Origin: Desulfofustis sp. PB-SRB1 | Lineage (GTDB): Bacteria > Desulfobacterota > Desulfobulbia > Desulfobulbales > Desulfocapsaceae | Reading direction: 5' to 3' | Length of the DNA: 64,000 nt | NCBI GenBank assembly: GCA_016722945.1 | Contig: JAEQMT010000066.1 | Span: 62,001 to 126,000 of the forward strand | Part shown: one piece after another, positions 11,076 to 50,679 of the stretch | How the letters are laid out: each line of letters begins with the position of its first letter | Position numbering within the stretch: position 1 is the stretch's first letter | Notes under the pieces: generated by a model | Told to the model about the DNA's origin: nothing | The model's input: only the letters and a program-made list of their open reading frames with translations | The model's database searches: none | Made by a program: the position numbers and the translations under genes

Positions 11076-11219
11076 GATGGCGTCGTAAAAACCCATATAC
11101 CAGTCATAACGGAGTTGACCCGACATTCATACTTAATTGGAAAGACTGGATTCCCGCTTTCGCGGGAATGACGATAATTAGCAATTTTGAGGTTTCTACG
11201 AGCCCATCACCCTTTGATG
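11076..11219 (-). repeat. Type-B interspersed repeat, copy B1
   Basis: One of eight copies of a roughly 135-160 bp element whose ends are inverted copies of TGATGGTGTCGTAAAAACC. The centre is the palindrome ATTCCCGCTTTCGCGGGAAT. This copy lies in the dapL upstream gap (10938-11505), which holds no gene. The rest of that gap carries copy C1. Confidence 0.85.
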
Positions 11220-23300: not shown

Positions 23301-23441
23301 ATGAACTCGTAAAAGCCTCAAAATTACTCGCTCCCGTCATTCCCGCGAAAGCGGGAATCCAGTAATTTCTAATAATTATGGATGTCGGGTCAATTCCCGT
23401 ATGAAGGGAACATGGTTCTTGTCGAAGCCATCTGAATATGG
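23301..23441 (+). repeat. Type-B repeat, copy B6, short-arm variant
   Basis: Third copy, with the ordinary ATTCCCGCGAAAGCGGGAAT palindrome. Its right edge marks the point where integrase homology ends. Confidence 0.85.
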
Positions 23442-41470: not shown

Positions 41471-41617
41471 GATTCAAGAGCGTACGGTACACGGCGGCAG
41501 ACCAGGAACATGCGGTTGGCACACTCACACGCTTGCAGGGAAGTAGAATTTTACGAGGCTCAAGATTGCAGAGGATGAGAGCGGAGAATAGTCAGGATTA
41601 TTCAGAGTTTTGATGTG

Positions 41618-42958
41618 ATGGTGACCATGCGTCTTCTTTCTCCGACCCGGCGAACAATTTTCTCCTTTGCCTCCATCCTTCTGGTCGTGGCGGTTTTAGG
41701 GTGCGCCGCTACCATTCCCTTTGTCTGGCCATCCACTTCGCTGTGGTATAAGACCGGATCGGACAAGCTGGTTTTACAGATCGGCAAAGTGTTCGGGCTC
41801 TGCGCGGCGGTGTTGTTTTTCGTGCAGATACTTCTTGTCCAGCGCCTGGTCATCTTTGATCGAATCTGGGGTCTGGATCGACTCTCTTTTTTTCATCGGA
41901 TCAATAGTTTTCTCATTCTCGCCCTGGCCATAACGCACAGCGGGCTGGTGATACTTCCCGAAGGACTCGATAACCTGCCGATCGGCCGGGAATTCTGGCC
42001 GGAGATGGTGGGGGCGGCGCTGGTTATCACGCTGGCGTTTTTTATCGCAGTCGCTCTCTATCGGCGCCGACTGCTTGCCTATGATGTATGGCGAAAGGTT
42101 CATCGGCCGGTGGGCTACCTGCTGGCGGTGGTTCTGATAATTCATATCTTCAACGTCAGCGATTCATTTGAAACCGGTGTGCCACGAGGCGGGCTCTGGG
42201 TTTTTATCGGCGCTATCGTACTCACTATCATCCTAGCAAAATATCTGACCGCCAGAATGACGTTGAAGCAACTGCCGGTCTCCGCCGGCAGGCAGGCAGG
42301 GGAGGGGGTTGTCGGGTTACGGATCGAGGTTCCTTCTTCATTCAGCTATGCCCCCGGGCAGTTCGCGTTTCTTAGCCTGCATGGCGGTGGCATCGCACCA
42401 GAGACACATCCCTTCAGCATCTCTTCGGCACCAGATTTCCCGACGAAGCGATCGTCTTCGATTGAATTTTTCATCAAACAATGTGGCGACTGGACCAGCA
42501 CCATCACCCCGGAAACAGGACTTCAGGCATCGCTGACGGGACCGTTCGGCCTGTTCAGCTACAAGGCCCGGCCACTGCCGCCGATGATTGTCTGCATAGG
42601 CGGGGGAATCGGCATCACCCCGCTTTTAAGCATGATTCGTCAGTTGAGCACCGAACAAGACGCGCCCAAGCTCATGCTGGTATGGAGTGTGACCAGAAAA
42701 TCGGATATGTTTCTGAGCGAGGAACTGACTGAGTTGCAGAGCCGGCTCCCTTTTCTGCACACCCACATCATCTATACCGGTGGAGAGGGCGGGCGCCGGC
42801 TCCATGAAGAGTCACTGAGTGCGTTGCTGAAGGATGTTCCGGACAACAGCCACTTCTACATCTGTGGCCCGGAACCGATGATGTCGGATATCCGCGGTCA
42901 TTTGCAGCAATTACGCTATTTACGAAAATCTATCTTCTGGGAACGTTTTTCACTCTAA
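41618..42958 (+). CDS. Ferric-reductase-like membrane flavoprotein
   Basis: A 446-residue protein. The N-terminal half has six hydrophobic segments with histidines in FFHRINSFL, ITHSGLV, WRKVHRPVGYL and VLIIHIFN, fitting a heme-binding ferric-reductase-like domain. The C-terminal half is a ferredoxin-reductase module: FAD-binding HPFSISSAP, NAD(P)-binding CIGGGIGITPLLSMIRQL and C-terminal FYICGPEPMM. It probably moves electrons from NAD(P)H across the inner membrane to an external acceptor. The start is one of ATG 41618, ATG 41627 or GTG 41615. Confidence 0.87.
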   Translation: MVTMRLLSPTRRTIFSFASILLVVAVLGCAATIPFVWPSTSLWYKTGSDKLVLQIGKVFGLCAAVLFFVQILLVQRLVIFDRIWGLDRLSFFHRINSFLILALAITHSGLVILPEGLDNLPIGREFWPEMVGAALVITLAFFIAVALYRRRLLAYDVWRKVHRPVGYLLAVVLIIHIFNVSDSFETGVPRGGLWVFIGAIVLTIILAKYLTARMTLKQLPVSAGRQAGEGVVGLRIEVPSSFSYAPGQFAFLSLHGGGIAPETHPFSISSAPDFPTKRSSSIEFFIKQCGDWTSTITPETGLQASLTGPFGLFSYKARPLPPMIVCIGGGIGITPLLSMIRQLSTEQDAPKLMLVWSVTRKSDMFLSEELTELQSRLPFLHTHIIYTGGEGGRRLHEESLSALLKDVPDNSHFYICGPEPMMSDIRGHLQQLRYLRKSIFWERFSL

Positions 42959-43117: not shown

Positions 43118-43708
43118 ATGAAGAAAATAGCCGTTCTAGCACTGCTTTTCACACTTTGTGCCGGCGCCCCGCAGGGTTTCAGCAAGGCAACGTCCTGGGA
43201 GGTGGATGAGGCGCATGCCTACATTTACTTTACAATCGATCATATCTTTTCCAAGGTGCGAGGACATTTTGAGGACTTTTCCGCTGAAATATACTTCGAC
43301 CCGGATAACCTTGCCGAAAGCAGCTTTTTTTTCGAGATTGAAGTGGACAGCATCAATACCTATCTCGGTAAAAGAGACAGACACCTGCGCTCGGAGGACT
43401 TTTTTGATGAAGATGAGTACCCGACCATCACCTTTCAGAGCAATCAAGTAACGGCTGCCGGTAACTCGGTTTATAACGTCGACGGGGTTCTCACCATCAA
43501 GGGCAAAGCCTACGATTTCACCCTGCCGCTCACTCTGGCCGGGGTTACCGACCATCCCATGGTCAAGGGTGCACGGGTGGCCGGCTTTAATGGTGAGGTA
43601 ACCCTGGATCGCCTCGAGTACGGGGTCGGCAGCGGTAAATATTATGAGATGGGCGTAGTCGGCAAAGACGTGGAGCTGCTCGTTACCCTTGAGGTTCTCA
43701 GCAAGTAG
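43118..43708 (+). CDS. YceI-family periplasmic protein
   Basis: A 196-residue secreted protein with a signal peptide ending near GFSKA. The YceI lipocalin-like pattern is complete: SWEVDEAHAYIYFTIDHIFSKVRGHFEDF, IEVDSINTYLGKRDRHLRSEDFFDEDEYPTITFQS and VDGVLTIKGKAYDFTLPLTL. Family members bind isoprenoid-type lipids and are often found with membrane cytochromes. The ferric-reductase-like gene lies 159 bases upstream. A GTGCTCC/GGAGCAC hairpin at 43720-43747 follows. Confidence 0.92.
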   Translation: MKKIAVLALLFTLCAGAPQGFSKATSWEVDEAHAYIYFTIDHIFSKVRGHFEDFSAEIYFDPDNLAESSFFFEIEVDSINTYLGKRDRHLRSEDFFDEDEYPTITFQSNQVTAAGNSVYNVDGVLTIKGKAYDFTLPLTLAGVTDHPMVKGARVAGFNGEVTLDRLEYGVGSGKYYEMGVVGKDVELLVTLEVLSK

Positions 43709-43819: not shown

Positions 43820-45043
43820 ATGAATCGGCCATCGTCGTCTTCGCCGCGGTGCTATCAATCTTCACCTGAAAACGATTTATGCAATCCGCCCATACCGGCC
43901 GGCCTGCGCCGGCAGGGCAGGGTGGCGGTAGTATTGCTTGCCGCGATCTGGCTTTCTTTTTCCGTGCTTGTGCTGGTGAGCGCGGAAGAGAGAATCGGAG
44001 CTTTTCTGTTACTTATCCCCGGCCTGGGAATTGTCGTTCATATAAGCGCTGTGTTGTCATCGCGCCTTGGTGACAATCACCGTATCGGCGAGCCGCAGCC
44101 ACTGTTTCCCACTCTTGGCGCCGGAAACTGGATCACCATGGCAAGAGCGGCGCTGGTTGGCGGGCTGGCCGCGCTGGTGCCGGTGACCTTATACCATGGT
44201 AGCTGGTGGGCTTATCTGACGGGGTGGCTGGCGGGAGGGGTGTATCTGAGCGTCTGCCTTGCCGATCTGCTGGATGGCTTTGTCGCCAGGAAACAAGGGC
44301 GGGTAACGGAACTTGGCGCAGCACTTGACATTGCAACCGATGGCGCCGGCCTTTTGGCCGCTTCGCTGATTGCGTTTTTCTTGGGCCGTGTTCCGGCAAT
44401 CTGCATACTGGTCGGAATGGCATACTATCTTTTCGTGGTCGGCAAGTGGTGGCGCCAGTACCGTGGATTACCGGTTGCGGAGCTGAGATACAGGCCTTAT
44501 GGTCGGATCATTGCAGGCTTTCAGATGGGGTTGTTCAGCATGGTTCTGTTTCCCGTTTTCGATACCACATACACCCGGCTGGCAGCGGTAATCTTCTTGA
44601 TTCCTTTTCTGGCAGGCTTTAGCAGAGACTGGCTGGTGGTGTCCTGCCGGGTTGCAACAGATGACAATCAGCGCTGCCGTCTCGATGATCTGTTTAACGA
44701 TTCAGTGAGCCGGTCGCTGTCTCTGGGGGCTCGCCTGGTCCTCGGGGGCTCCGCTTATTTTCTTGTTTCAGCAGGCTCGGCAGCAGGTATCGGGGTGGGC
44801 TGGATCGTTGCATGCGGAGCCTTGGCCGGCCTTGCCGTGGCGGGTTTAATAGGCCGCGTTGCTGCCCTGCTGCTGCTTGTTGTGCTTGGCCTCAGCGCCT
44901 CCCCTTTTGGTGGCACGGCCGCGGCTACCCTCTGCTTTAGCAGTGCGACGGTTCTCCTGCTGGCCGGCAGCGGCCCTTTTTCTCTCTGGAGACCGGAAGA
45001 AGATATCCTCTATCGTCGTAAATCCGAGGCACCCGGAACATGA
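43820..45043 (+). CDS. CDP-alcohol phosphatidyltransferase-family membrane protein
   Basis: A 407-residue polytopic protein. The catalytic signature of the family, D-x2-D-G-x2-A-R-x8-G-x3-D-x3-D, is intact in ADLLDGFVARKQGRVTELG followed by AALDIATD. It should transfer a phospho-alcohol from a CDP carrier to an acceptor at the inner membrane. It is longer than typical members: additional hydrophobic helices make up the C-terminal 150 residues. It heads a coupled six-gene cluster, with the next gene overlapping by ATGA at 45040. The products joined cannot be told from sequence. Confidence 0.88.
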   Translation: MNRPSSSSPRCYQSSPENDLCNPPIPAGLRRQGRVAVVLLAAIWLSFSVLVLVSAEERIGAFLLLIPGLGIVVHISAVLSSRLGDNHRIGEPQPLFPTLGAGNWITMARAALVGGLAALVPVTLYHGSWWAYLTGWLAGGVYLSVCLADLLDGFVARKQGRVTELGAALDIATDGAGLLAASLIAFFLGRVPAICILVGMAYYLFVVGKWWRQYRGLPVAELRYRPYGRIIAGFQMGLFSMVLFPVFDTTYTRLAAVIFLIPFLAGFSRDWLVVSCRVATDDNQRCRLDDLFNDSVSRSLSLGARLVLGGSAYFLVSAGSAAGIGVGWIVACGALAGLAVAGLIGRVAALLLLVVLGLSASPFGGTAAATLCFSSATVLLLAGSGPFSLWRPEEDILYRRKSEAPGT

Positions 45044-45834
45044 CGGCTCCCGTGAACAGACACCATGATCTGTTGACCGCGGGCAGCGGTGGTGACACGA
45101 TGGATGGCATTGATCAGGCAGGTGAAAACCGGTGCAGCAGATGGTTTGACCAGATGCCGGAGCGCGCCGCTCGCTTTTTCAAACAATCTGAGCGTCCTCT
45201 GGTCATTGTGTCGTACGCCCAGAGCCTCGATGGCAGTATCGCCACCTACGACCGAAAGCCGATACCACTGAGCAGTCATCACTCAATGGTTCTGACCCAT
45301 CGCCTGCGCGCCGTCTCAGACGCCATCCTTATCGGTATAAATACCCTTATTATCGATGATCCCCTGCTTACCGTCCGGCTTGTGGAAGGAAACAACCCGT
45401 GCCCCATCATACTCGACAGCAGGCTGCGCATCCCAGCCCAGTCTCGTGTTTTACGGCGTCGTGGACACCGGTGCATGGTGGCCGGAACCATCGGCCCCAG
45501 TCACGAGCGGGTCGCCGAGCTGGAGGAGCTGGGCGGCGAGGTGATTCACTGCCGGCCTGATCCATGCGGCAAGGTCGATCTTGTCCACCTGTTGCACCAG
45601 TTGGGCCGGCGTGGCATCCAAAGTGTGATGGTCGAAGGGGGCGGCGAGGTCATCACCAGCTTTCTGCAGTCCCGGCTGGCTGATCACCTGGTGCTCACCA
45701 TCGCGCCGCGATTTGTCGGCGGGCTGCCGGCCCTGGGCCGCCTGGCAGCGGCACCTCTTTCTTTTACGGATGGCTTTTACCATTGCTGCGGTCCGGATAT
45801 CGTTTTTTTCGCCACGCCGCGCTGGCACGAGTGA
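45040..45834 (+). CDS. RibD C-terminal-domain-like reductase
   Basis: A 264-residue protein. Residues 50-260 match the RibD C-terminal/dihydrofolate-reductase-like domain: VIVSYAQSLDGSIA, LTHRLRAVSDAILIGINTLIIDDPLLTVR, ILDSRLRIP and VMVEGGGEVITSFL. It lacks the RibD deaminase domain. Family enzymes reduce the ribosyl group of a pyrimidine intermediate with NADPH. In this cluster, next to a pterin-synthase-like gene, its substrate may be a related pteridine or amino-sugar compound; this is inference. It overlaps both neighbours. Confidence 0.87.
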   Translation: MTAPVNRHHDLLTAGSGGDTMDGIDQAGENRCSRWFDQMPERAARFFKQSERPLVIVSYAQSLDGSIATYDRKPIPLSSHHSMVLTHRLRAVSDAILIGINTLIIDDPLLTVRLVEGNNPCPIILDSRLRIPAQSRVLRRRGHRCMVAGTIGPSHERVAELEELGGEVIHCRPDPCGKVDLVHLLHQLGRRGIQSVMVEGGGEVITSFLQSRLADHLVLTIAPRFVGGLPALGRLAAAPLSFTDGFYHCCGPDIVFFATPRWHE

Positions 45835-46862
45835 TGAAACGGTATTTCCTGGAATGTGTGGCACCCGGCAGGATGGAGGTACAGTGCTCCCCCATGACCG
45901 GGCCGGGCGAACATGAAGTAACTGTGCAGACCACCGTATCGGCCATCAGCCCGGGTACGGAGATGCTTGTCTACCGTGGTCAATGGCCGGAAGGTGTTTC
46001 ACTGGACAGCAGTATCGAAGCGCTTACCGGCTCATTTTCCTATCCGGTGGCCTATGGATATTGCGCCGTGGGAAAAGTTGTGGAACTGGGCTCCGGCGTC
46101 TCTTCCGACTGGATAGACCGGCGCGTTTTCGCCTTCCAGCCGCACCAGAGTCATTTTCATGCGCCGATATCCTCGCTTGAGATCGTGCCCGACGATATCG
46201 ACGATGAAACAGCGCTGTTTTTGCCGGGCATGGAAACGGCAATCACCCTGATGCTCGATGGCAGGCCCATTATCGGTGAAACGGTCGTGGTCATCGGCCA
46301 GGGCATTATCGGTCTGCTGACCACCGCCATGCTGTGCCGGTTTCCTTTACACTCTCTGACAACGCTGGACAGATACCCGCTGCGGCGAGAAGCGTCCCTG
46401 CGGCTGGGCGCCCGGGACAGTTTCGACCCTGAAGAGCCCGGCCTCTTTGAGCGGTTGGGAGCGGTTGTCGGCAGAGGAGGGGAGAGTGACCTGGTTTATG
46501 AGCTTTCCGGCAACCCAGAATGTCTCAATGATGCCCTCGCCCTCGTCCGCTATACCGGCAGAGTGGTTGTGGGATCCTGGTACGGGACAAAAACCGGTGC
46601 GCTCGATCTGGGCTCCTTTTTTCATCGTGGCCGGATCACCCTGATCAGCTCCCAGGTGAGCAACCTGCCACCTGAGTTAAGCGGGCGCTGGAATAAGAGG
46701 CGGCGACTGGAGACGGCCTGGGATATGCTTGCCACGATATCTCCAGCCTCACTCATAACCCACCGTTTTGAGCTCCAGGATGGGGCGCGGGCCTATGCCA
46801 TCATTGACCGTGATCCGGGTGCATCCATCCAGGTCATTTTTGATTACCGGGATGGCTCATAG
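45834..46862 (+). CDS. MDR-family (zinc-alcohol-dehydrogenase-like) oxidoreductase
   Basis: A 342-residue medium-chain dehydrogenase. The Rossmann region is ETVVVIGQGIIGLLTTAML, and the N-terminal half has SAISPGTEMLVYRGQ and YPVAYGYCAVGKVVELG. The catalytic-zinc cysteine and the four-cysteine structural-zinc lobe of classical ADHs are absent; SPGTE-type members of the superfamily include non-zinc enzymes. The start ATG overlaps the previous stop by one base. The substrate is unknown and may be an intermediate of the cluster product. Confidence 0.87.
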   Translation: MKRYFLECVAPGRMEVQCSPMTGPGEHEVTVQTTVSAISPGTEMLVYRGQWPEGVSLDSSIEALTGSFSYPVAYGYCAVGKVVELGSGVSSDWIDRRVFAFQPHQSHFHAPISSLEIVPDDIDDETALFLPGMETAITLMLDGRPIIGETVVVIGQGIIGLLTTAMLCRFPLHSLTTLDRYPLRREASLRLGARDSFDPEEPGLFERLGAVVGRGGESDLVYELSGNPECLNDALALVRYTGRVVVGSWYGTKTGALDLGSFFHRGRITLISSQVSNLPPELSGRWNKRRRLETAWDMLATISPASLITHRFELQDGARAYAIIDRDPGASIQVIFDYRDGS

Positions 46863-46887
46863 TCATATCCGGCATACGAGGGATAAC

Positions 46888-47265
46888 ATGTATGAACTAG
46901 GCATCAGGCGAAGCTTTTCAGCCACTCACTATCTGATTGGTGGTGATTGGGGGGCGGAAAACTTTGAACATTCTCATGAATACCGGCTTGAAGTAATCCT
47001 GGGAAAAAACCAGCTGGACCGGCACGGCTTTCTGGTTGATATTGTCGAGGTTGAAGATCATCTGGATCAGGTCGTCGCCCAGTTTCGCGGCAAGACCCTG
47101 AACGATCTGCCCGGTTTCACCGGTGCAAACCCCAGCATTGAACGACTGGCGGCCGTCATACATGAATGTTTCCGTTTCCGTTTTGCCGACTATGACCTGA
47201 GCTCGCTCACCGTTGTCATCTGGGAGGATGACATTGCCTGGACCTCCTATCGTGCCTCTTTTTAA
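46888..47265 (+). CDS. 6-pyruvoyl-tetrahydropterin synthase/QueD-like protein
   Basis: A 125-residue T-fold protein. Zinc-ligand histidines can be placed in FSATHYLI and in EHSHEYRLEV. The C-terminal NPSIERLAAVIHE and VVIWEDDIAWTSY match the family, including the conserved glutamate after W. The cysteine that usually precedes the HxH pair in QueD (C-x3-H-G-H) is not there; the sequence is WGAENFEHSH. The enzyme may therefore carry out a different reaction on a dihydroneopterin-type substrate. The ATG at 46888 is preferred; one at 46852 is possible. Confidence 0.87.
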   Translation: MYELGIRRSFSATHYLIGGDWGAENFEHSHEYRLEVILGKNQLDRHGFLVDIVEVEDHLDQVVAQFRGKTLNDLPGFTGANPSIERLAAVIHECFRFRFADYDLSSLTVVIWEDDIAWTSYRASF

Positions 47266-48383
47266 TGCGAATCGGCTTTGTCATCTACGGGCGTCTGGAT
47301 ACGGTGACGGGCGGTAATCTCTATGATGATTTCCTCATCGACAATCTGCGTCGGCGCGGTCATGACCTTGAAATAATCAGCCTTACCCCCGGCACCTATC
47401 TGCACAAGGTGGCGCAGGGGTTTTCACCGAAACTGTCCACGCAGCTCTTGGGGGGAAACTTTGACGTCATCATTCAGGATGAGCTGTGCCATCCCAGCCT
47501 CTTTTTACTCAACCGGATGTTGCGCCGGCGCCGCCGGCCGTATTTGGTGGCCCTGGTGCATCACCTGTTCAGCCGTGAGCGTCACCATCGCCTGCTCGGC
47601 ACCTTGTTCTCGATAGTTGAAAATCGCTATCTTCGTGCAGTCGACGGCTTTATCTACAACTCGGCCACGACCGGGGCTCTGGTAAATTCCGTCTTGTTGC
47701 GCAACAAACCGAACGTGATCGCCTCGCCGTCGGGCAGCCGTTTTAATTTCATCATGAGCGACGAAGAGATTGGCCGACGGGCACGACAACCCGGTCCACT
47801 TAGGTTGCTGTTTATGGGAAATATCATTGCCCGCAAGGGGCTGATGCCGCTCCTTTATGCATTGAGTACCTTAGAATCCCGCTATTGGCGGTTGACGGTG
47901 GTGGGTAGCACCGAGTTCGACCCCGGCCACAGTGCGACGGTCATCACCCTCATGCACGAACTGCAAATGGAAAAGCAGGTCGATTTTCTCGGCGCCGTGG
48001 ATGATGATCAACTGGTCGAGATGCTCAAAACACACCAGGTATTCTGCATGCCGTTTGCCTATGAGGGTTTCGGCATTGCCATGCTCGAGGCCATGTCCTG
48101 CGGCCAGATACCAATCGTCAGCTCCGAGGGAGCCGCCCCTGAAATGGTCCGGCACGGTGAAAACGGTTATATCATCGCACCAGGCAATGAAAATGACGTC
48201 TCTGAAGCACTCATCGGATTGTACCACGACCGCACAAATCTCACCCAGCTCGGTATCTCGGCCAGATCCAGCTATGAAGATGCCCCGGATTGGCAGGATA
48301 CGGCCGATGCCGTAGAGAATTTTTTACAGACCCTCGTCGGCACGCCCGGCTTTCAACCAGCACCTGGAACACTAGCCGCTTAA
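47265..48383 (+). CDS. Family 4 glycosyltransferase
   Basis: A 372-residue GT-B enzyme. The C-terminal domain has the donor-binding region LRLLFMGNIIARKGLMPLLYAL and the E-x7-E motif in FAYEGFGIAMLEAMSCGQIPIVSSEGAAPEMV. The N-terminal domain starts MRIGFVIYGRLDTVTGGNLYDDFLIDNLRRRGHD. It shares the base at 47265 with the stop codon of the pterin-synthase-like gene, so the two are coupled. It likely glycosylates the cluster product or a lipid carrier. Confidence 0.9.
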   Translation: MRIGFVIYGRLDTVTGGNLYDDFLIDNLRRRGHDLEIISLTPGTYLHKVAQGFSPKLSTQLLGGNFDVIIQDELCHPSLFLLNRMLRRRRRPYLVALVHHLFSRERHHRLLGTLFSIVENRYLRAVDGFIYNSATTGALVNSVLLRNKPNVIASPSGSRFNFIMSDEEIGRRARQPGPLRLLFMGNIIARKGLMPLLYALSTLESRYWRLTVVGSTEFDPGHSATVITLMHELQMEKQVDFLGAVDDDQLVEMLKTHQVFCMPFAYEGFGIAMLEAMSCGQIPIVSSEGAAPEMVRHGENGYIIAPGNENDVSEALIGLYHDRTNLTQLGISARSSYEDAPDWQDTADAVENFLQTLVGTPGFQPAPGTLAA

Positions 48384-48443
48384 TCGCCTCTTTTCGTTAT
48401 ATCATGCATTAAAGTCACCCCGGACAGCAACAATCACACCGGT

Positions 48444-49382
48444 ATGGATTCAAACGGGCATGTCTTTACGGCCGGCTATCTGGCCGCCAAAAGAGAAATT
48501 GATGACAGGGCGCTCAATACTCACGTATTGGACACCCTCACCGCCTGTCTTTCAGCCGAAAACAGGGCAGGGCCCCGGCGGGTTCTGGAAGTTGGGGCGG
48601 GTATCGGCTCGATGTGTGCCCGGCTCGTTGAACGGGGACTATTTACGGGTACAGTGGAGTATTGGCTGACCGACACTGACCACAGCCTTCTGGCCGAGGC
48701 CAGAAACTACCTTACCGGGTGGGCGGGCAAACACAATTTCAGCATTACCTGGAACCCCGACCACACCGCTCACCTGACTACTGGAGCAACCGAGATCACC
48801 ATTTCCCTGGCACCGGTTGATATACGTTATATCAGTTCAAGACCTGACTTTTACTGCTATTTTGATCTGCTTATCGCCCACGGAGTGTTGGATCTTTTTG
48901 AACTATCGCCGGTAGTGGAAGAATTTACCGGCTGCCTCGGGAGTGGTGGGCTGTGCTACTTCACCTGCAATTTCGATGGTGAGACGTATTTTTCGCCTGA
49001 GTTGCCGGATGATCGGAGGATACTTGATCACTATCACGGTTCCATGGCAAAAAGATCCTCCACGGCGCGATATACCGGTCGGAGGCTGCTTGGTTATTTT
49101 CTTGAAAACCACGCCCAGGTTATGGCCGCCGGCAGCTCGGACTGGGTGATTCATCCCGGCAGTCAGGGCTATAGCGCTGCCCAGAGAGAATTTCTGGGGG
49201 CTCTTCTTTCACTGATTGAAAAAGAAGTTGCCGATATTGAGGAGAACAGGCACCTGTACACCACTTGGATAGATCTTCGCCGCCGGCAGATCGATGCGGG
49301 CTCTCTCTCGCTTGTCGCCAAACACCTCGATATTCTTGCCCGGCCCGACCCCGGTACCCGTCTGATGACGCGGCGGGCATAA
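48444..49382 (+). CDS. SAM-dependent methyltransferase
   Basis: A 312-residue class-I methyltransferase. The SAM-binding motif I is RRVLEVGAGIGSMCARLVERG near residue 47, with motif II-like WLTDTDHSLLAEARN. DLLIAHGVLDLFE follows as the post-II segment. The C-terminal 100 residues are longer than the minimal fold. It ends the six-gene cluster, 61 bases after the glycosyltransferase. What it methylates is unknown. Confidence 0.83.
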   Translation: MDSNGHVFTAGYLAAKREIDDRALNTHVLDTLTACLSAENRAGPRRVLEVGAGIGSMCARLVERGLFTGTVEYWLTDTDHSLLAEARNYLTGWAGKHNFSITWNPDHTAHLTTGATEITISLAPVDIRYISSRPDFYCYFDLLIAHGVLDLFELSPVVEEFTGCLGSGGLCYFTCNFDGETYFSPELPDDRRILDHYHGSMAKRSSTARYTGRRLLGYFLENHAQVMAAGSSDWVIHPGSQGYSAAQREFLGALLSLIEKEVADIEENRHLYTTWIDLRRRQIDAGSLSLVAKHLDILARPDPGTRLMTRRA

Positions 49383-49495: not shown

Positions 49496-49629
49496 TGATG
49501 GCGTCGTAAAAACCTTAAAATTGCTTGCTTTCGTCATTCCCGCGAAAGCGGGAATCCAGTAATTTCAATTTATTATGGATTTCGAGTCAACTACACCATA
49601 ACGGTAACAGAGTTTTTACGAGTTTATCA
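49496..49629 (+). repeat. Type-B interspersed repeat, copy B7
   Basis: Complete 134-bp copy from TGATGGCGTCGTAAAAACC to GTTTTTACGAGTTTATCA. The central palindrome is ATTCCCGCGAAAGCGGGAAT. Confidence 0.87.
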
Positions 49630-49635
49630 AAAAAT

Positions 49636-49770
49636 AATGGTGTCGTAAAAACCTCAAAATTGCTTGCTACTGTCATTCCCGCGAAAGCGGGAATCCAGTG
49701 ATTTCAAGTAATTATAGATGTCGGATCAATTCCGGTATGACGGGCATATGGGTTTTTACGAAAGCATCAA
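49636..49770 (+). repeat. Type-B interspersed repeat, copy B8
   Basis: Complete 135-bp copy, 7 bases after B7. It ends 4 bases before the ATG of the FkbM-type methyltransferase gene. The two copies occupy most of the gap 49383-49773, which holds no gene. Confidence 0.88.
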
Positions 49771-49773
49771 AAA

Positions 49774-50679
49774 ATGACCACCAGGAAAAATTTTTCAGAG
49801 CATCTGGGCCTTCTTCGGTCCCGCCTGATCTATTACGGTAAACCGTTCAACCGGCGGCGGCTGATCAGGTTTTATCAGCAGTTTGTCAGGCCCGGAGCTC
49901 TGTGTTTCGACATCGGGGCGCACCTCGGCAACCGCACTGAAGCCTGGCTGAGGTTGGGAGCTGCAGTGGTAGCGGTGGAACCGCAACCTGCCTGCACCCA
50001 ATATCTAGAGAAACAATTCGGCGACCACCCACGTTTTACGCTGATCAAAAAAGCGATCGGAGAACGATCCGGGCTGATGAATCTGCACATCAGTGAAAAG
50101 ACGCCAACGCTCACCACGCTTGCCGGCACTGACTGGCAGCAGTCAATTCAGGACGCTACTCCTTATAAGATACGATGGGATAAAACTATTCCGGTGGAGG
50201 TTATCACCCTCGATGAACTGATCAGGTGCCACGGCGTTCCGGATTTTTGTAAAATCGACGTGGAAGATTTTGAGGCCGCGGCATTGCGGGGGCTGTCCCA
50301 TGCTGTTGCGGCCCTGTCCTTTGAGTTTTTCACCCCTGCCATGAATCGAGTGACCGAGTGCATCCGGCGGCTGGAAACGCTTGGTGAATATCGGTATAAC
50401 TGGTCGATCGGCGAGAGTCAGCGCTTTGCGGGCGAGTCGTGGATCAGCGGGGACAAGATGATCAACACTATTGCCGGTTATTCGCAGACGCCGCTGTCAG
50501 GAGATGTCTACGCCCGACGAACAGAATCGTTCATAGACGCGTCATCATCGCAAGGCATCGGTAACGAGATTATCTTATTGAGCCGGCAACCGATGGCCGG
50601 CCGGGCACGGCAGACAACAATACCCCCTCTATTACCTATACGTACAGGCTGCATATGTGGGATGAACGATACAGTGTAG
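49774..50679 (+). CDS. FkbM-family methyltransferase
   Basis: A 301-residue SAM-dependent methyltransferase. The FkbM pattern shows in ALCFDIGAHLGNRTEAWLRLGAAVVAVEPQP, VEVITLDELIRCHGVPDFCKIDVEDFEAAALRGL and a helical C-terminal part. FkbM enzymes O-methylate sugars or polyketides. Together with the previous cluster it may modify a glycoconjugate. It has no visible ribosome-binding site because repeat B8 abuts the start. Its last 25 bases overlap the next methyltransferase gene. Confidence 0.9.
   Translation: MTTRKNFSEHLGLLRSRLIYYGKPFNRRRLIRFYQQFVRPGALCFDIGAHLGNRTEAWLRLGAAVVAVEPQPACTQYLEKQFGDHPRFTLIKKAIGERSGLMNLHISEKTPTLTTLAGTDWQQSIQDATPYKIRWDKTIPVEVITLDELIRCHGVPDFCKIDVEDFEAAALRGLSHAVAALSFEFFTPAMNRVTECIRRLETLGEYRYNWSIGESQRFAGESWISGDKMINTIAGYSQTPLSGDVYARRTESFIDASSSQGIGNEIILLSRQPMAGRARQTTIPPLLPIRTGCICGMNDTV

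Follow-up and report, generated by a model that had tools for sequence, protein, structure and literature searches.

A conserved six-gene cluster of Desulfofustis sp. PB-SRB1 and the membrane-linked GTP derivative that it may produce

Among the 6-pyruvoyltetrahydropterin synthase (PTPS) proteins, PTPS-I, or QueD, is defined by the motif CxxxHGH, and PTPS-IV is said, as unpublished data, to act in F420 synthesis (PMC5041015). Genes for PTPS-IV proteins, which carry the signature FGPAQ, are reported to neighbor PF00925 (GTP cyclohydrolase II) and PF01872 (RibD_C) (PMC5445326). Pteridines carrying a sugar are described from cyanobacteria and Chlorobium (PMC13259868; PMC5683033). According to the account in PMC13259868, most biological pterins begin with GTP cyclohydrolase I, and no pterin efflux system has been identified. 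Here we describe a cluster of six genes from Desulfofustis sp. PB-SRB1 that places a PTPS-like protein (D) beside a CDP-alcohol transferase (A), a RibD_C reductase (B), a medium-chain dehydrogenase/reductase (MDR) family dehydrogenase (C), a GT4 glycosyltransferase (E) and a methyltransferase (F). The cluster lies in a stretch of 64,000 nucleotides, called the window below (contig JAEQMT010000066.1, positions 62,001 to 126,000). We propose, with moderate confidence, that the locus is the Desulfobacterota version of a conserved pathway, which starts from GTP, passes through 2-amino-4-oxo-pyrimidine intermediates and ends in a membrane-linked compound bearing a sugar and a methyl group.

The six proteins and their described relatives

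The six open reading frames (ORFs) occupy 43820-49382 of the window, all on the plus strand (Table 1). A preliminary description, made from the DNA letters, had placed a six-gene cluster with overlapping starts and stops here. All six ORFs are found where it put them and its three overlaps are exact. A and B overlap by 4 bases (ATGA at 45040), B and C meet at TGATG (45832) and D and E at TAATG (47263). The six genes are confirmed and lie close together.

D belongs to the PTPS family (PF01242, 2e-21, 76.8 bits, above the cut-off). The PDB structure nearest to its AlphaFold2 model is the PTPS-IV protein SCO6650 (3d7j, COG0720), which is also its best sequence match. D was aligned with 65 cluster sequences and with the QueD-type PTPS of the same genome. 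The three zinc-ligand histidines are well conserved (His14 in 65/65, His28 in 54/65 and His30 in 63/65), as is Glu113, which anchors the ring (65/65). The catalytic cysteine of QueD is replaced by Glu24, with glutamate there in 63/65 sequences. Arg67-Gly68 stands where QueD has its catalytic Asp-His pair; across D sequences this pair is mostly Arg-Asp or Arg-Gly. D therefore shares the T-fold, the zinc histidines and the ring-anchoring glutamate with QueD/6-carboxytetrahydropterin synthase, and differs from it at the cysteine and at Asp-His. Since the anchoring and zinc residues are kept and the catalytic residues of QueD are replaced, D probably binds a 2-amino-4-oxo-pyrimidine or pterin and carries out chemistry unlike that of QueD.

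The window D departs from each PTPS motif with which it was compared. It reads ENFEHSH where PTPS-I has CxxxHGH and lacks the cysteine of PTPS-II (CxxxxxHGH). PTPS-III is defined by ExxHGH, and in D the glutamate lies four, not three, residues before the first histidine of an HSH motif. In the columns aligned with the FGPAQ of PTPS-IV it has WGAEN, together with a complete HxH. FGPAQ is nevertheless present in the D proteins of five plasmid records with the same gene context (L114, L115, L116, L181 and L182). FGPAQ forms of D adjoin C in Streptomyces, Methylosinus, Thiodictyon, Agrobacterium and a Rhodobacteraceae strain, accompanied by F in all five and by E in four, the Rhodobacteraceae strain having no annotated GT4. 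PF01872 of the published PTPS-IV neighborhood is found in the window, PF00925 only in relatives outside the window's clade. As excerpted, the published account of that neighborhood mentions no glycosyltransferase, methyltransferase, CDP-alcohol or flippase partners (PMC5445326). The preliminary description knew of no established pathway with this set of genes. The neighborhood is not entirely new, since PTPS-IV genes had already been reported beside PF00925 and PF01872. No account of the cluster, pathway or product was recognized in the open-access literature among the matches listed.

B has a single Pfam match, PF01872 (6e-39, 134 bits, above the cut-off), over residues 53-228 of 264, and the N-terminal deaminase domain of bifunctional RibD was not found in it by Pfam. 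Its best PDB match is 2azn, a riboflavin-pathway reductase (2.5e-28), followed by 6p8c, named 2,5-diamino-6-ribosylamino-4(3H)-pyrimidinone 5'-phosphate reductase. In these matches and in having no deaminase domain, B resembles the archaeal and fungal riboflavin reductases. It differs from them in scoring below the NCBIfam equivalog for the archaeal-type diaminopyrimidine reductase (TIGR01508; 131.5 vs 186.45 bits) and in its position away from riboflavin genes; the genome has a separate RibD.

Elsewhere in this genome RibBA sits between RibE and RibH, both identified by Pfam. A second RibD_C gene, with a frame of 352 amino acids, was read as bifunctional RibD, its deaminase part being recognized by eye. 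The genome also has a separate QueD-type PTPS with CExPHGH, and FolE2 with two matches. B and D are thus extra copies. GTP cyclohydrolase I (PF01227) was not found in the genome, so that C and D might have stood in for it there; the presence of FolE2 weakens this idea. The better FolE2 match (G000:C19:30313-31044) has an in-frame TAA and the second match, elsewhere, has none.

A matches PF01066 (5e-12, 46.8 bits vs a cut-off of 22) and carries the complete D..DG..AR(x8)G...D...D motif at residues 149-174, which marks it as a CDP-alcohol phosphotransferase; the motif is present in 23/27 readings of A. With this motif, its best NCBIfam match and its top PDB sequence match (a PgsA, E 0.0014), A is closest to PgsA-type enzymes, but at 407 residues it scores far under the pgsA cut-off (32.5 vs 109.1 bits). 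C matches PF00107 above the cut-off (2e-9) and is 59-68% identical to six orthologues in the family. E has a GT4 domain (PF00534, Glycos_transf_1; 3e-33, 115 bits vs a cut-off of 26.4). F falls narrowly below the cut-off of Methyltransf_12 (PF08242; 29.3 vs 30 bits). Its structural model (pLDDT 92.7, from 31 aligned sequences) has the Rossmann-like fold of a class I methyltransferase, with 3mgg as the best Foldseek match (E 5.5e-12, TM 0.54/0.65).

Conservation, distribution and additional genes

C was sought in 58 genomes, the window's own included, and an orthologue was defined by at least 58% identity. Orthologues were found in 7/58. A, B and C are present in order at all six other loci, and E and F follow in the same order at 5/6, those whose contigs continue. 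D was detected at five of the six by BLAST and at the sixth (G025) by a profile. When 93 genomes of the family were searched with the D profile, 13 scored 173-199 bits and all other matches listed scored less than 80. Both searches covered 37 family genomes. The C and D orthologues adjoin each other in the same 7 and are both absent from the other 30, so the pathway is accessory and has a patchy distribution. As a control, 15 regions around MDR paralogues (24-30% identical) were used, 13 of 14-20 kb and two of 4.2 and 6.5 kb. None of A, B, D, E, F or the associated genes was detected in any of the 15 at E 1e-4, a threshold that the C query itself misses in 5/15. These distant MDR matches were accordingly rejected as weak versions of the cluster.

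A search of species genomes with an alignment of C yielded 80 loci out of 146 relatives, or 81 loci with the window. They span Desulfobacterota, many Chloroflexota (Anaerolineae) and two haloarchaea, and include single bins labeled Pseudonocardiales and Gammaproteobacteria. Counting only loci with enough flanking sequence, B is near C in 61/74, D in 58/68, E in 55/64 and F in 41/58, and B through F occur together in 31/54. Where all three are present, C, D and E follow one another in this order on a single strand at 61 of 62 loci. Orthologues share gene order in Desulfobacterota and Chloroflexota; proteobacteria, Streptomyces and haloarchaea have divergent versions. The preliminary description would have fallen had homologues failed to co-occur; they co-occur widely, and its decorating and lipid-linking set of glycosyltransferase, methyltransferase and CDP-alcohol transferase recurs with the cluster. 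RibE and RibH of the Desulfofustis genome match 0/81 loci (tblastn, 1e-5), indicating that the cluster is not a riboflavin operon.

Annotated plasmid versions were found in archaea (Halomicrococcus, Haloarcula, Natronorubrum and Halobellus) and bacteria (Thiodictyon, Methylosinus, the Rhodobacteraceae strain and Agrobacterium). On the Agrobacterium plasmid pAt, one stretch holds LtaS-like, flippase-like, A, RibA, C, D, E, F and RibD_C genes, with RibA adjoining A; its LtaS-like protein is 33% identical. An unannotated plasmid of Streptomyces globisporus carries A, B, C, D, E, GTP cyclohydrolase II, a creatininase-family protein, a flippase-like protein and an ORF that resembles a methyltransferase but scores slightly below a Pfam cut-off. 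The C proteins of the proteobacterial and Streptomyces plasmids group together in the tree of C, on a distant branch of their own. One PTPS match in Streptomyces anthocyanicus has no such cluster in its annotation table, which is incomplete. C matches 198 plasmid records (Enterobacter 55, Sinorhizobium 32 and others). Two PTPS queries match 11 and 20 plasmid records, and neither Enterobacter nor Sinorhizobium is among the matches listed. Most of the plasmid matches of C are probably generic MDR genes.

A linked GTP cyclohydrolase, which the preliminary description had suggested looking for, is found in many relatives. GTP cyclohydrolase II was detected by tblastn in 41/81 loci and lies directly before B in 40/41, with match ends -181 to +378 bases apart; L094 is the sole such locus without B. 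In L102 (8628-9974) the cyclohydrolase is fused to the B domain in a protein of 449 amino acids (PF00925 5e-69, PF01872 7e-41). All 41 keep the zinc motif HSEC.TGD...RCDCG and have tyrosine at the position equivalent to Tyr105 of the E. coli enzyme. In S. globisporus this position is methionine, and the neighboring gene encodes the creatininase-family protein (PF02633, 2e-60). GTP cyclohydrolases of the methionine type stop at a formyl intermediate, which creatininase relatives deformylate in archaea. On a Haloarcula pelagica plasmid, GTP cyclohydrolase III (PF05165, 2e-82; L112 7190-7969), unrelated to the type II family, takes the same place and adjoins C.

The window's clade comprises 19 loci, of which 14 have an LPG_synthase_TM (flippase-like) gene (not the window, L035, L038, L040 or L047), 11 an LtaS/sulfatase-like protein and 8 a tyrosine-phosphatase-family protein, some contigs ending early. 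In relatives the cluster thus has more than six genes. A family of small membrane proteins, weakly DUF7475-like and under the cut-off (e.g. L051 8211-8558), was observed in 16/81 loci, none of them in the window's clade.

A proposed pathway and its alternatives

The preliminary description envisaged enzymes acting on GTP-derived pteridines or pyrimidines. A cyclohydrolase is indeed linked to the cluster, but it is of type II or III and not type I. This suggests that the route is entered through a pyrimidine/ribityl compound, like the route to riboflavin. What we observe is gene content and conservation; each reaction described next is inferred from the family of its enzyme. GTP cyclohydrolase II, seen to cluster with B, would open GTP to 2,5-diamino-6-ribosylamino-4(3H)-pyrimidinone 5'-phosphate, supplied by the housekeeping RibBA in Desulfofustis and by the in-cluster cyclohydrolase elsewhere. 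B would then reduce the ribosyl to a ribityl chain without prior deamination. Its solved relatives include a reductase named for the non-deaminated substrate and there is no deaminase among the six genes, so the 2-amino group should stay. C may oxidize a hydroxyl of the chain and D may reshape or close the chain. The least certain detail is that oxidation at C2' could be followed by attack of the 5-amino group, giving a 7,8-dihydropterin without GTP cyclohydrolase I. At the family level, E would attach a sugar and F a methyl group. A would attach a CDP-activated lipid to the product or to a polyol-phosphate that it carries. In relatives, LPG_synthase_TM would move the product across the membrane and the LtaS/sulfatase-like enzyme would modify it outside.

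Several observations weigh against this pathway. The window itself has no GTP cyclohydrolase, flippase-like or LtaS-like gene. GTP cyclohydrolase II is found in 0/19 loci of its clade, and the flippase-like query finds nothing elsewhere in the genome. F is missing in 17/58 loci. One zinc histidine of D is asparagine in 11/65 sequences, and one is alanine in the two FGPAQ forms of the alignment. The reaction of C and the substrate of D are guesses. Of the loci without B, 12/13 also have no cyclohydrolase (Fisher p 3e-7 when the window's clade is excluded). Ten of the 13 belong to one Chloroflexota clade, and on the tree of C only 2-3 independent pairs are left, which is not significant. This joint absence is therefore not independent evidence, and it was dropped as strong statistics. 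In 11/12 Chloroflexota genomes without B at the locus, cyclohydrolase II lies beside RibD_C elsewhere, consistent with supply in trans. However, the RibD_C proteins of the 8 such loci read share only 29-37% identity with B, and their role may be in riboflavin synthesis.

The lipid step is also open to another explanation. A is near C in only 20/44 loci with long flanks, so that lipid linkage belongs to the core less securely than B, C, D and E do. In two compact plasmid versions only C, D and a methyltransferase are seen, with RibD_C in one of them. The product could then be a soluble, secreted pteridine or pyrimidine glycoside comparable to cyanobacterial pterin glycosides or toxoflavin-type azapteridines, and A and the flippase-like and LtaS-like genes would serve a separate envelope function that is often adjacent. 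Pterin glycosides are known bacterial products; as excerpted, the source mentions no lipid link, and it has most biological pterins starting from GTP cyclohydrolase I (PMC13259868). We give this explanation a rather low probability. A overlaps B in the window, is found at 18/19 loci of the clade and accompanies the core again in Thiodictyon, Agrobacterium, Natronorubrum, Haloarcula and Streptomyces.

Membership in a deazaflavin/F420-related pathway appears improbable. The Fo precursor of F420 also requires a ribitylamino-pyrimidine. In keeping with the unpublished ascription of PTPS-IV to F420 (PMC5041015), the closest solved relative of D is SCO6650, and D proteins with FGPAQ share this gene context. 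In the annotated neighborhoods examined, no Fo synthase or CofC/D/E was seen, no genome-wide search having been made. Nor do glycosyl, methyl and lipid genes fit F420 as it is known. Separate recruitment of riboflavin and queuosine enzyme paralogues to one place, with no common pathway, would suit single families that are common and a genome that has canonical paralogues of both B and D. Conservation contradicts it. The same order is kept in Desulfobacterota and Chloroflexota and the same families recur in proteobacteria, Streptomyces and haloarchaea; C and D are both present or both absent in 37 genomes, and 0/15 control regions were positive. Such co-location is very hard to credit. Overall, the interpretation in the preliminary description is partly supported.

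Neighboring genes and wider meaning

Upstream of A lie genes for a YceI-like protein and a ferric-reductase-like flavoprotein, from which a redox role had been suggested. This suggestion is weak: YceI is found in 5/19 and the ferric-reductase-like gene in 2/19 loci of the clade, the window included. Cytochrome b561 occurs in the Agrobacterium and Thiodictyon versions. Downstream, an FkbM-type methyltransferase is a possible seventh gene; its homologue is present in only 1/80 other loci, between E and F in a Chloroflexota locus (L074 13528-14199). Two copies of the repeat GTCATTCCCGCGAAAGCGGGAATCCAG separate F from the FkbM gene; this repeat has a palindromic core and five exact copies in the window (5 matches to the core vs 0 expected in shuffles). 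It looks like a dispersed repeat element.

Table 1. Positions of the cluster genes, their neighbors and the repeat in the window
Feature	Position	Strand	Basis
A: membrane CDP-alcohol phosphotransferase	43820-45043	+	PF01066, motif, PgsA-type PDB match
B: stand-alone RibD_C-type reductase without deaminase domain	45040-45834	+	PF01872, PDB matches
C: MDR-superfamily dehydrogenase	45834-46862	+	PF00107, six family orthologues
D: PTPS-like T-fold protein	46888-47265	+	PF01242, alignments, AlphaFold2 model
E: GT4-family glycosyltransferase	47265-48383	+	PF00534
F: class I S-adenosylmethionine-dependent methyltransferase	48444-49382	+	PF08242 just under cut-off, predicted structure, Foldseek
FkbM-type methyltransferase, possible seventh gene	49774-50679	+	PF05050
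YceI-like protein, facultative neighbor	43118-43708	+	PF04264
Ferric-reductase-like membrane flavoprotein, weak neighbor	41615-42958	+	PF01794, PF08022, PF00175
GTCATTCCCGCGAAAGCGGGAATCCAG repeat copies	49533-49559, 49672-49698, 23336-23362; minus strand near 11146 and 16280

A conserved multi-gene pathway in at least Desulfobacterota, Chloroflexota, Pseudomonadota, Streptomyces and Halobacteria represents a large gap in metabolism. Its entry chemistry is predictable, so the product can be sought directly. The annotation 6-carboxytetrahydropterin synthase, given to genes in such neighborhoods, is probably a misnomer. More tentatively, and with rather low confidence, bacteria and archaea may share a pterin pathway free of GTP cyclohydrolase I that ends in a lipid-anchored, surface-exposed pterin. 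In it, GTP cyclohydrolase II or III, the ribosyl reductase, a 2'-dehydrogenase and the Cys-less PTPS would yield a dihydropterin; this would then receive a sugar and a methyl group, be anchored to a phospholipid and be flipped to the outer face. A pterin-like group linked to lipid would bear on how bacterial pterins reach the outside and on what PTPS-IV enzymes do, and it would constitute a new class among membrane molecules.

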